NCBI RefSeq assembly: GCF_900129315.1
Contig: NZ_FQUS01000002.1
Span: forward strand, 62,001-126,000
DNA: 64,000 nucleotides
DNA from: Fodinibius roseus
Lineage (GTDB): Bacteria; Bacteroidota; Rhodothermia; Balneolales; Balneolaceae
Direction: 5' to 3'
A program made the translations under genes and the position numbers. Positions within the stretch are counted from its first letter, which is position 1. The number at the start of each line of letters is the position of its first letter. Of this stretch, positions 29,133-59,282 are shown piece by piece. The notes beneath the pieces are model-generated. The model was not told the DNA's origin and made no database searches. It saw only the letters and a list, made by a program, of their open reading frames with translations.

Positions 29133-29470
29133 AGCGGGGATGCATTACGGTATTATGGATCATTGTTATAAAATTTTTGGGGGGTTTGGCACCAGATCCA
29201 GCGAATCAACAAATCCGGGGACATGCTGGGTATTACCCTGGAGGATCATATTATACTGACGGCTGATTATTATGTTTTACGGCTGGCAAAGGGGGATACT
29301 ATAATTCGGTTTATACCAGCAAAGGGAAAGGAATACCTTCTCTTTTAGGTTAGGATTTCTTTTTTTGCTTGTTCCCTTTTCAGTCCTTAGAATGGGATAA
29401 ACAAAATGTTGGATGTCTATTCCCCCTACAAAGAAGTGCTTGCTTTACTTAAAGATGAGATAAGATTTTG

Positions 29471-29818
29471 ATGAATCGGCTAGACGATCTTAAAGAAAAA
29501 CTACAGGAATTTAATAGGGAACGGGATTGGGATCAGTTTCATTCTCCCAAAAATATAGCCATGGCATTGTCAGTAGAAGCCAGTGAAATTGTCGAGATAT
29601 TCCAGTGGATGCAGGAAGAACAGAGCTATGATCTAGAACGTGATGAGAAAGAAAAACTGGAAGAAGAGTTGGGTGATGTGTTTCTATACCTGCAACTGCT
29701 GGCCTCAAAATATGATATTGATTTACTGGAAGTAGCAAGAAAGAAATTGGCTAAAAACAAAAAAAAGTATCCTGTTAATAAAGCAAAGGGTTCATCAAAG
29801 AAATATGCAGAGCTTTAA
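29471..29818 (+). CDS. MazG-like nucleotide pyrophosphohydrolase
   Basis: All-alpha NTP pyrophosphatase of the MazG/RS21-C6 type, 115 residues. The metal-binding pattern is visible as EASEIVEIFQW and EEELGDVFLYLQLLA (the ExxE...ExxD signature), with an N-terminal FNRERDWDQFHSPKN block typical of the dCTPase-like branch. Such enzymes hydrolyse (d)NTPs to monophosphates. The stop is 3 bp before the next gene, so the two are one operon. AT content is higher than in the core genes, consistent with acquired DNA. Confidence 0.88.
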   Translation: MNRLDDLKEKLQEFNRERDWDQFHSPKNIAMALSVEASEIVEIFQWMQEEQSYDLERDEKEKLEEELGDVFLYLQLLASKYDIDLLEVARKKLAKNKKKYPVNKAKGSSKKYAEL

Positions 29819-29821
29819 CAG

Positions 29822-31675
29822 ATGATTGTTTACCAGGCAGATAAGGAGTCGTTTACAGAAGATATTGAGTCCGGTGGGGTTGAGGAATCTATTTCCTATA
29901 TGTATGAGGCTCGACTCAACAGGAGAGTTTCTGATTCTGAAAAGCGCTCGTGGAAGAATTCCCTGCAATACATGTATATGGTATTGAATGATGAGGAGAT
30001 CCCCGAGGATTCCGGAATTAGTATCGAGTTACAGATTCCCCAGACATCCAAGCGGATTGACTTTATCATTGCCGGGCAGGATGAAAATAAAGAAGATCAT
30101 GCCGTGATCGTTGAGCTCAAGCAGTGGGAAACAGCGCAGCGAACCAATATGGACGGGATCGTAAAAACCTATTTCCAGGGAGGGTTGCATAACACGAGCC
30201 ACCCATCCTACCAGGCATGGTCATATGCTGAATTGCTAAAAGATTTCAACAAGTCCGTGTACGAAGATGGGATAAACTTAAAACCGTGTGCATACCTGCA
30301 TAACTTTATGGGTGATAATGTGTTGGATCACTCATTCTACGAAGAGTATGTAAACAAGGCCCCTGTATTTAAAAATCGGGACCATAGAAAGCTGCGCTCC
30401 TTCATAAAAAAGTATGTCAAATACGGAGACCGTTCCGGTATTCTTTACCGTATTGATAATGGGGAGATACGCCCATCCAAAATGCTGGCCGACAGCCTTA
30501 AGTTGATGCTGGAAGGCAACGAAGAGTTTATCATGATTGATGAGCAGAAAGTTGCCTTTGAGTATGTAATGGACGCCGTTGAAAGTGCCGAAGAGGGGAA
30601 GAAGAAAGTAATCCTTGTAGAAGGAGGACCCGGAACCGGTAAATCTGTTATTGCAGTAAACTTACTGGTAAAATTAATAGGCAAGGGACATGTTGCCAGT
30701 TATGTCACGAAAAATTCGGCTCCGCGACAGGTATATACTTCCTATCTAACGGGCAGTATGAAAAGGTCAAGTGTAGAGAACCTATTTCGTAGTTCAGGAC
30801 AGTTTATAGATGCTCAACCCAATGATTTTGATGCCCTGATTGTAGATGAAGCGCACCGTCTAAAAGAAAAGTCCGGTCTTTACAGCAATCAGGGAGATAA
30901 CCAAATCAAAGAGATAATTAATGCCTCCAACGTTTCGGTCTTTTTTATTGACGAAGACCAACGCATACATATAAAGGACATAGGGAAGAAAGAGGAGATA
31001 AGGAAATGGGCCGATCAGTTCGATGCGGAAGTTATTGAAACCGAGCTTTCCTCACAGTTTCGATGCAATGGGTCTGACGGATACCTCGCTTGGGTAGATC
31101 ACATCCTGCAGATAAGAGATACGGCCAATACAGATCTCTCGGATATCGATTATGATTTTCAGGTGTTTTCGTCTCCTAACGACCTATTTGAGGAAATAAA
31201 GGAGAAGAATAAAGTAAATGACAAATCTCGGGTTGTAGCAGGCTATTGCTGGCCGTGGAAAAGTAAAAAGGACAGCCGGGCGATGGATATTGTCATTCCA
31301 GAGCATGGATTTAGCAAGCAATGGAATCTGGAGGATCACGGGCAGAAATGGTTGGTACAGGAAGGCTCGATTAATCAGATCGGCTGCATACATACCTGCC
31401 AGGGATTAGAGCTGGATTATGTAGGTGTCATTATCGGTCCGGATTTCAAAATTCGGGATGGAAAAGTAGTCACCGATTTGGATGAGCGATATACCTATGA
31501 TTCCTCAATTCGAGGGCTTAAAAAGATGCGAAAGAAAGATCCGGAAAAAGCTGCAGCTAAGGCTGGCCGCATTATCAAGAATACCTACCGTACGCTTATG
31601 ACCAGGGGTATGAGGGGATGTTATATCTTTTGCACAGATAAGGAGACGGAGGTGTACTTTCGAAGGATGATATAA
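29822..31675 (+). CDS. DUF2075 protein: PD-(D/E)XK nuclease-like domain plus P-loop helicase
   Basis: 617 residues. The N-terminal part contains a nuclease-like pattern: D80 in KRIDFIIAG followed by E98-x-K100 in AVIVELKQW. The C-terminal part is the DUF2075 helicase domain with Walker A GGPGTGKS (268-275), DEAH Walker B (342-345), SSQFRCNGSDGYL, a motif V-like HTCQGLELDYVGVI, and the terminal RTLMTRGMRGCYIF block. This predicts a nucleic-acid-dependent ATPase coupled to a nuclease. Tight coupling to a MazG-type enzyme suggests a genome-defence or DNA-maintenance pair, which is inference. The nuclease fold needs structural confirmation. Confidence 0.85.
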   Translation: MIVYQADKESFTEDIESGGVEESISYMYEARLNRRVSDSEKRSWKNSLQYMYMVLNDEEIPEDSGISIELQIPQTSKRIDFIIAGQDENKEDHAVIVELKQWETAQRTNMDGIVKTYFQGGLHNTSHPSYQAWSYAELLKDFNKSVYEDGINLKPCAYLHNFMGDNVLDHSFYEEYVNKAPVFKNRDHRKLRSFIKKYVKYGDRSGILYRIDNGEIRPSKMLADSLKLMLEGNEEFIMIDEQKVAFEYVMDAVESAEEGKKKVILVEGGPGTGKSVIAVNLLVKLIGKGHVASYVTKNSAPRQVYTSYLTGSMKRSSVENLFRSSGQFIDAQPNDFDALIVDEAHRLKEKSGLYSNQGDNQIKEIINASNVSVFFIDEDQRIHIKDIGKKEEIRKWADQFDAEVIETELSSQFRCNGSDGYLAWVDHILQIRDTANTDLSDIDYDFQVFSSPNDLFEEIKEKNKVNDKSRVVAGYCWPWKSKKDSRAMDIVIPEHGFSKQWNLEDHGQKWLVQEGSINQIGCIHTCQGLELDYVGVIIGPDFKIRDGKVVTDLDERYTYDSSIRGLKKMRKKDPEKAAAKAGRIIKNTYRTLMTRGMRGCYIFCTDKETEVYFRRMI

Positions 31676-31920
31676 TGAGCGAGCTACACGACCGCATGCC
31701 AGTGATGCTCTTATAAGAAGAATGGGATAAGTGGCTGGATCATAATACCAAGTCACTCAAAGAGCTACTTAATCCGTTTCCTGATGATGCGATTGATTTT
31801 CACTAAATGGATAAAAAGGTTGGTAAGGTCAGCAATAATTCGCCTGATCTGATAGACGCCACAGAGTATATTTCCCATACCGGTTTTTCTCCAAAATCGT
31901 CTTTTTCAACAATTTTATAG
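31675..31920 (+). pseudogene. C-terminal remnant of an SRAP (YedK/HMCES-type) gene
   Basis: One frame reads MSELHDRMPVML, a stop (31714), EEWDKWLDHNTKSLKELLN..FPDDAIDFH, a stop (31804), then KVGKVSNNSPDLID. These match the last third of SRAP proteins in order: the (NEL)M..IHDRMPV block, the aspartate/tryptophan-rich middle, and the terminal V..V.NN..ELI motif. The N-terminal two thirds, including the Cys2 active site, is missing. The remnant begins exactly at the TAATG overlap with the DUF2075 stop, as if a deletion or insertion joined the two genes. SRAP proteins crosslink to abasic sites in single-stranded DNA. It is not functional here. Confidence 0.8.
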
Positions 31921-32543: not shown

Positions 32544-33506
32544 TTATTGGTCTTCAACTTTGATAGCCTTAGTACCGCTTAGACTTACAATTGAGGTACC
32601 GAAGTTAGGGCTTTCCTCAGTTCGAAGACAGAAAATAAACTGGATATATCCAAGGTTCCCGGAAGGGATAATTCTTACTTCCATTAATCTCCTGTCATCC
32701 AGGAAACCACCAATGTTTAGGAAACTTTGTACCTGCTGTAGAACAGCTCGTTCTGCATCGCGTGTTACGTAGCCCATGATGACGGGCAGCAATTTTTCTA
32801 TAGTTTTTGCAACCGTTGCACTATGACCCAGGGAAATTATGTCTTCGAGCCAATGAAAGTTGGCGTTTTCATCGGACGTTATGCTTACCTCTAACGAGGT
32901 TTCATTATCCTCATCCAGTTCAGCTCTTATATAAAGCTTTAGAGTTATATCAAGATCGCCATTAAAAAAGTTATTTATGACGATTTCCAGCGGCAATTTG
33001 TATTCTATACGGTTATTAAACCATGTCGATTCGATTTCCGATCTAAATCTCAAGTATTGGATACCATCTATTTGATCGTTTATTTGATTGAAGGCCAGAT
33101 TATCAAGTAATGATTGTGGGATTTCCCTAATCTTATTTTCTCCTTCCGTAGTAATCTGGAGAGGTTCACCAATGGGGGACCATATATTCCCACTATTCAC
33201 ATGTTTGGCCATGAGTGACAAAAAGGTATCCTTGTAGACCGAAAAATTCTCTGATCCCCTCGCAGGTATATCGTTATTAATATCCGCGTAATGTACACGA
33301 AGCCTGAACTGATAATCACTTAAAGTGACGTTATTTTGCTTCGCTTGTATCCCCCAGTTTGCCTGAATTTCTTCACACGGGGCTACCGTTGATTTAGAAA
33401 TTTGAAATTCGGCTACTTCAAGTTTATCTCGAAGGTCAGGTATGGTCGGTGGAGAAATAACGATACCGTCATCCTGATTCAGATTTGGATTAAGTTTTAT
33501 TTTCAT
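32544..33506 (-). CDS. Hypothetical protein, 320 residues
   Basis: I do not recognise this gene. The frame is long, with ordinary amino-acid use. The N-terminal half looks beta-rich (ISKSTVAPCEEIQANWGI, QFRLRVHYADIN, as in Ig-like sandwiches). The middle has IEYKLPLEIVINNFFNGDLDITLKLYIRA, and the C-terminal part has mixed helix with a hydrophobic GYIQFIFCL strand. No signal peptide or membrane segment is evident, so it is probably cytoplasmic. It stands alone, convergent with the small Cys peptide, in AT-rich accessory DNA. Confidence 0.7.
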   Translation of the reverse strand: MKIKLNPNLNQDDGIVISPPTIPDLRDKLEVAEFQISKSTVAPCEEIQANWGIQAKQNNVTLSDYQFRLRVHYADINNDIPARGSENFSVYKDTFLSLMAKHVNSGNIWSPIGEPLQITTEGENKIREIPQSLLDNLAFNQINDQIDGIQYLRFRSEIESTWFNNRIEYKLPLEIVINNFFNGDLDITLKLYIRAELDEDNETSLEVSITSDENANFHWLEDIISLGHSATVAKTIEKLLPVIMGYVTRDAERAVLQQVQSFLNIGGFLDDRRLMEVRIIPSGNLGYIQFIFCLRTEESPNFGTSIVSLSGTKAIKVEDQ

Positions 33507-58835: not shown

Positions 58836-58874
58836 TAGCCTGTCGACTGATAATCGACAGGCTATATTTTTATT
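58836..58874 (+). terminator. Strong hairpin with U-tract, plus strand
   Basis: TAGCCTGTCGA (58836-58846) and TCGACAGGCTA (58854-58864) form a perfect 11-bp stem with a 7-nt loop, followed by TATTTTTATT. It lies upstream of the CE15 gene (minus strand) with no plus-strand gene directly before it. It would insulate the DNA to the right. The interval 58875-59280 holds no gene that I recognise. Confidence 0.7.
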
Positions 58875-59282
58875 CCTTCTCCACTATTAAAGTAGATGAA
58901 TTATTCTGTCTTCGCTAACCTTCCGGTCGACCTGGTGGAAATCAATTACATCATCCGGAAACGAATTAAGCAGTCCTTTGAGTGAGCTGGTGTTGTGATT
59001 ATCCGCTCCCGGCTTTTGTTTTCGACAACAACCGGCATGGTAAGGCTGGGAGCACTATAGGAACTGGTTCGCACAATTTAAGTGTTATTTTTTGAAAATA
59101 ATTATGCCTGCCTAAAAAGAAATGAGCTGTCCTACAGTTGTCCCCAGGTATAATTGCAAGGCTGTAACACCTTCACAAAAACCATAAAAAGAAATGATTA
59201 TTCAATAAAACAGTACGAACTGTAACTTTAATCAATAAAATCACTCAGGGTATGTAAAAGTACCCAAGAGAGGACTTATTTA

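Follow-up and report, generated by a model that had tools for sequence, protein, structure and literature searches.

The window, meaning the whole 64,000-nt stretch of DNA analysed here, comes from Fodinibius roseus (NZ_FQUS01000002.1, positions 62,001 to 126,000 of the forward strand), and all coordinates are positions within it. Two intact genes lie on its forward strand: a small gene for a MazG-like pyrophosphohydrolase and, beginning 3 nt after the MazG stop codon, a longer gene for a predicted nuclease-helicase. This pair, termed the cassette below, is bordered by remnants of two other genes, RadC and SRAP (YedK/HMCES). The MazG reading frame is intact from an ATG at 29471 to the stop codon at 29816-29818; a TTG codon at 29468 lies in the same frame.

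Features at the locus, with window coordinates and the basis of each assignment
Feature	Position	Strand	Basis
MazG-like pyrophosphohydrolase, dCTPase/DCTPP1/RS21-C6 type, 115 aa	29471..29818	+	PF12643 and DCTPP1 profile match, kept residues
PD-(D/E)XK-like nuclease plus SLFN-g3 (DUF2075) SF1 helicase, 617 aa	29822..31675	+	PF09848, kept motifs, structure models
N-terminal nuclease-like domain, about residues 1-230	29822..30511	+	predicted structure, candidate active site
SLFN-g3 helicase domain, residues 261-606	30602..31639	+	PF09848, invariant residues
SRAP (YedK/HMCES) 3' remnant with two stop codons, bystander	31674..31868	+	PF02586, DNA identity
RadC 3'-end remnant upstream of MazG, bystander	29199..29267	+	61% identity over 23 aa, E 6e-6 (17-kb search)

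The MazG protein matches the Pfam profile PF12643 at 54 bits (cut-off 27) and PF03819 at 31 bits. Its best relative in the PDB is dCTP pyrophosphatase 1 (DCTPP1, E 6e-23); comparison of profiles with DCTPP1 gives 5.5e-28, and among solved structures the closest relatives are dCTP pyrophosphatase 1 proteins of mammals. The metal-site motif ExxE...ExxD is formed by E36, E39, E66, and D69, which are kept in 65-66 of 66 aligned homologues; H24, W46, and N96 are likewise kept, so that all seven residues are found in 63-66 of the 66. By these matches the window MazG belongs to the dCTPase (DCTPP1/RS21-C6) subgroup of the MazG superfamily, and this placement makes dCTP or a modified form of it the more probable substrate, as judged from kept residues only. 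General NTP depletion, as the original prediction had it, is thus too broad. The cassette MazG shares its family with DCTPP1/RS21-C6, including the metal and base-contact positions; however, DCTPP1/RS21-C6 is a housekeeping gene, whereas the cassette MazG is the mobile operon partner of a nuclease-helicase.

The helicase part of the second protein matches the SLFN-g3_helicase profile (PF09848) at 366 bits over the full length of the model (positions 1-354 of 354). Its Walker A motif is GGPGTGKS, with K274 encoded at 30641-30643, and its DEAHR box comprises residues 342-346. The first 230 residues match no Pfam family. A structure model of the first 235 residues (pLDDT 87.6) has the order helix-strand-strand-strand...helix-strand, as in PD-(D/E)XK nucleases, and its structural neighbours are mainly such nucleases (Can2, Card1, EndoMS, Kpn2I, NucC, and Cap4) at modest Z scores of 4.5-6.8; Foldseek with the same model gave no match at E<0.001 (E 0.1). 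The candidate active site comprises E40, D80 (30059-30061), E98 (30113-30115), K100 (30119-30121), and Q131. Together with K274 and D342-E343 of the Walker A and B motifs, these residues are invariant or nearly so across 66 aligned homologues; D80, E98, K100, and Q131 are invariant. Because the structural matches are modest, the assignment draws on the order of the fold elements and on the residues jointly, which support the earlier proposal of a predicted PD-(D/E)XK-like domain at the N-terminus. In a model of a 795-aa homologue (L068, pLDDT 84.6), the helicase part matches UvrD, SLFN11, SLFN14, and RecD2.

Coupling of MazG to the nuclease-helicase is a consistent trait of these loci, contrary to the outcome that would have counted against the original prediction. 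The helicase is patchily distributed among 98 relatives, being found in 17 genomes, and MazG adjoins it in all 13 of the same-order loci that have enough upstream sequence, the window included; in three of these 13 the aligned helicases share only about 35% of their residues. Among the closest homologues with upstream room, which come from many phyla, MazG is paired in 67 of 79 loci: directly upstream in 60, directly downstream in five, and separated only by a GIY-YIG-DUF2075 gene in two. Junctions between MazG and helicase genes in the top homologues are tight or overlapping, often by -3 nt, and over a set of 66 loci the protein distances of one partner follow those of the other (Mantel r 0.55, 0 of 5000 permutations). 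The whole-gene alignments and the recurrence in dozens of loci rule out chance and confirm that the pairing, as originally predicted, is real. The remaining 12 of the 79 loci (about 15%) have no nearby MazG, and in all but one of these the helicase is full-length; MazG may therefore be helpful rather than essential. Two Algoriphagus operons (L082:52-3944 and L089:5668-9857) hold one MazG gene, then a GIY-YIG-DUF2075 gene, then a PD-type-DUF2075 gene.

The partnership is not a general trait of DUF2075 helicases. Among strong DUF2075 loci surveyed across the phylum, MazG was found with five of seven PD-type and three of three GIY-YIG-type genes, compared with none of 19 loci of another type, two of which were tested and proved to be full-length PDC-S41. 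Since MazG occurs only with certain DUF2075 clades, the partnership is specific and does not simply come with the helicase family. A large Bacteroidota group of SLFN-g3 helicases of about 660 aa (L152-L170) lacks MazG, and the two members tested are the PADLOC candidate system PDC-S41.

Many homologues extend beyond the helicase into a LexA/UmuD-like S24 domain, which was detected by profile at the C-terminus in 49 of 83 scored homologue loci (about 60%). Peptidase_S24 matched all eight of the long C-termini tested. Among 48 long homologues the S24 nucleophile serine is kept in 100% and the lysine in 96%, and a cleavage-like A-x-G-x-F site is present in 90-98%; in the L068 structure model, the last 140 residues match UmuD', UmuD with RecA, and LexA (Z 14.6). 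The C-termini of many homologues thus share the Ser-Lys dyad, the A-x-G cleavage site, and the fold of the LexA/UmuD autopeptidases. In contrast to LexA and UmuD, in which the domain is part of a repressor or polymerase subunit, the homologue domain is fused to a nuclease-helicase. The 617-residue window protein ends after the helicase and lacks S24. Presence of the domain changes at least nine times on the tree, and the window copy sits in an S24-less branch, so S24 was not lost just here; no separate S24 gene was found near the S24-less homologues. Lacking S24, the window copy must be regulated in another way. A sister clade has a GIY-YIG nuclease in place of PD-(D/E)XK, together with MazG and an S24 domain that shows the same serine, lysine, and cleavage-like site. 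The S24 domain and the nuclease swap occur in homologues only and were thus out of sight of the original prediction. An S24 domain of this kind ends one neighbouring protein of the order methyltransferase-HNH-S24 (L093:4279-6567) and is part of another, methyltransferase-PLD-helicase-S24-DUF3427 (L084:10523-14374); its occurrence on these other defence-like architectures suggests a shared switch module.

Helicase relatives are widespread: a scan of species genomes returned at least 515, from many phyla, and archaeal copies lie on plasmids. In genomes of the same genus, DNA homology (81% identity) runs from the MazG start to the helicase end and includes nothing else, and these copies lie at different sites with different neighbours. 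Such restriction to the two genes marks MazG and the nuclease-helicase as a mobile unit. Decayed copies of the cassette are present in two relatives (G024 and G008). At about 42% GC, the cassette lies below the roughly 50% of most stretches sampled from its host genome, in agreement with the AT-rich character noticed earlier. An origin in phage genomes was considered and rejected: only three viral contigs and four phage records matched, so the cassette is not typically phage-borne. A 22-kb record deposited as a phage, Microcystis phage Mwe-JY31 (L139), encodes a PD-type helicase with 55% identity and a MazG-sized gene directly upstream. A blastn search of 20,395 E. coli records with a Pseudomonas cassette found no copy, which is weak evidence because this search sees DNA similarity only.

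Defence genes abound around the homologues. The 146 genes immediately adjacent to homologues match 152 PADLOC models at E<1e-15, compared with 14 for 146 control genes from nine arbitrary genome stretches; the ratio is rough, because models are counted and some proteins match many of them. Matched neighbours include HNH, AbiEi, SoFic, DISARM DrmD, and Zorya-like ZacC. Directly beside the cassette in its closest relatives lie SIR2 and HerA (G011), NACHT/STAND (G056), and GmrSD (G027), and plasmid copies of the helicase lie among restriction-modification genes. The anti-phage setting that had been proposed is supported for the family, although the window copy itself lies in no evident defence island: around it are genes for a P-type ATPase, an unknown gene, and an ECF-sigma/SusCD-like run. 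Beside the cassette, at 32544-33506 on the minus strand, is an intact gene for a 320-aa protein with no match in Pfam, NCBIfam, or PHROG. The survey of DUF2075 neighbourhoods that the original prediction called for yields MazG partners and defence-gene neighbours, but no SRAP partners.

Several described systems have parts in common with the cassette. Nhi (nuclease-helicase immunity, SERP2475) likewise joins a nuclease and a helicase in a single polypeptide, and its helicase core is weakly related to cassette residues 237-442 (44 bits). Within the 470-aa PADLOC model of Nhi, the cassette protein matches only positions 182-355, the helicase core, and leaves the N-terminus unmatched. In the available portions of two reports, Nhi is a non-abortive, DNA-targeting defence that acts by restricting phage DNA and has a link to the phage SSB (PMC12904381, PMC11811056); unlike the cassette family, it is described in those portions with neither a MazG partner nor an S24 domain (PMC12904381, PMC11811056). 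PDC-S41 also consists of an SLFN-g3 helicase with an N-terminal domain, measures about 660 aa, and occurs in Bacteroidota, yet its model PDLC05014 gives the cassette 59 bits (best stretch 424-623 of 657), compared with 947-963 bits for true PDC-S41 proteins, and MazG is missing from all 19 of the other-type DUF2075 loci to which the two tested PDC-S41 proteins belong. The helicase core of AbiO is related to that of the cassette at 47 bits; nothing else in AbiO matches, and it has no MazG. Membership in Nhi, AbiO, or PDC-S41 was ruled out, the matches being partial and weak. The C-terminal helicases of human SLFN11 and SLFN14 belong to the same fold family as the cassette homologue helicase (Z 18-20). 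The N-terminus of SLFN11 and SLFN14 is a Schlafen RNase core, whereas that of the cassette protein is a predicted DNase-like PD-(D/E)XK domain. No description joining a DUF2075 or Schlafen helicase with MazG was found in the papers searched, and the cassette is not described among the PADLOC models of 2023; a more recent description is possible.

Taken as a whole, the sequence evidence probably describes a compact, horizontally moving, two-gene anti-phage system that combines a nuclease-helicase with a dCTPase and, in many hosts, has a switch of the RecA/SOS type. MazG and the nuclease-helicase would be co-expressed as one mobile unit. The SF1 helicase would travel along phage DNA at intermediates of replication or damage, where the PD-(D/E)XK domain (GIY-YIG in the sister systems) would cut it, and the dCTPase-type MazG would hydrolyse dCTP or a modified dCTP, so that the phage replisome is starved or unmodified DNA is exposed. 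In S24-bearing versions, RecA filaments would trigger self-cleavage at the A-x-G-x-F site between the helicase and S24, turning the enzyme either on or off. A wider generalisation, which we offer tentatively, is that the homologues form a widespread, so far undescribed immune family with a swappable nuclease (PD-(D/E)XK or GIY-YIG), a Schlafen-type helicase, often a LexA-like self-cleaving switch, and nearly always a dCTPase MazG; its members might read phage-induced damage through RecA, as in the SOS response, and apply dCTP removal and DNA cutting jointly at the phage fork. If the anti-phage reading is right, three well-understood enzyme classes (a dCTPase, a Schlafen-type nuclease-helicase, and a LexA/UmuD autopeptidase) are joined in one immune system. 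That would point to a bacterial strategy in which depletion of nucleotides goes hand in hand with cutting of DNA, and to an anti-phage nuclease under direct control of the SOS RecA signal. It would also offer a bacterial counterpart, with at least 500 natural variants, for the study of Schlafen-type helicases such as SLFN11.

The same enzymes could instead serve the host as a module for DNA repair or replication stress, with the nuclease-helicase acting on damaged forks, MazG clearing away damaged dCTP, and S24 providing the link to SOS. DCTPP1-type MazG proteins are a housecleaning family, and both S24/UmuD and SLFN11-like helicases form part of DNA-damage responses; however, the patchy spread across phyla, the plasmid copies, the decay seen in G024 and G008, and the defence-rich neighbourhood are untypical of core repair, and this explanation is unlikely. 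Rather improbable, too, is a role directed against hypermodified phage DNA, in which MazG would destroy the modified dCTP of a phage (e.g., 5-hydroxymethyl-dCTP), leaving unmodified cytosine that the nuclease can cut. The human member of the dCTPase subgroup accepts modified dCTPs, which fits the subgroup of the cassette MazG, and restriction systems lie near the cassette in some hosts, but the nuclease bears no sign of sensitivity to modification. A toxin-antitoxin pair, with a toxic nuclease-helicase restrained by the small upstream MazG as it destroys an activating nucleotide, would account for the gene order (small gene first, large nuclease gene next) and for the tight or overlapping junction. 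We consider it quite improbable: the full-length helicases at the loci without a nearby MazG indicate that MazG is not obligatory for viability, and in many loci the helicase has its own candidate switch, S24.

The SRAP remnant is best seen apart from this anti-phage reading. It covers positions 158-214 of PF02586 (43 bits), the last third of the gene, with two internal TAA codons, and its DNA is 81% identical to an intact SRAP gene of the same genome. As had been noted from the sequence, it starts exactly at the stop overlap: its first nucleotide lies within the helicase stop codon, and the joint is therefore sharp. That start is what would favour a three-gene unit whose functional SRAP partner was lost at the window locus, an idea that is very hard to sustain, since tblastn found no SRAP beside the cassette in any related locus, same-genus copies have other genes at that place, and the window holds another SRAP remnant that has nothing to do with the cassette. 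A part for SRAP in the unit, which the original prediction had allowed, was rejected on these grounds. The remnant is a scar or former neighbour, which marks where the cassette joined older DNA and says nothing of cassette function. The second decayed SRAP fragment lies at 58867-59054 on the minus strand; its DNA is 80-83% identical to that of the genome's intact SRAP gene. At the other end of the cassette, the RadC remnant adjoins a step in composition from about 55% to 40% GC.
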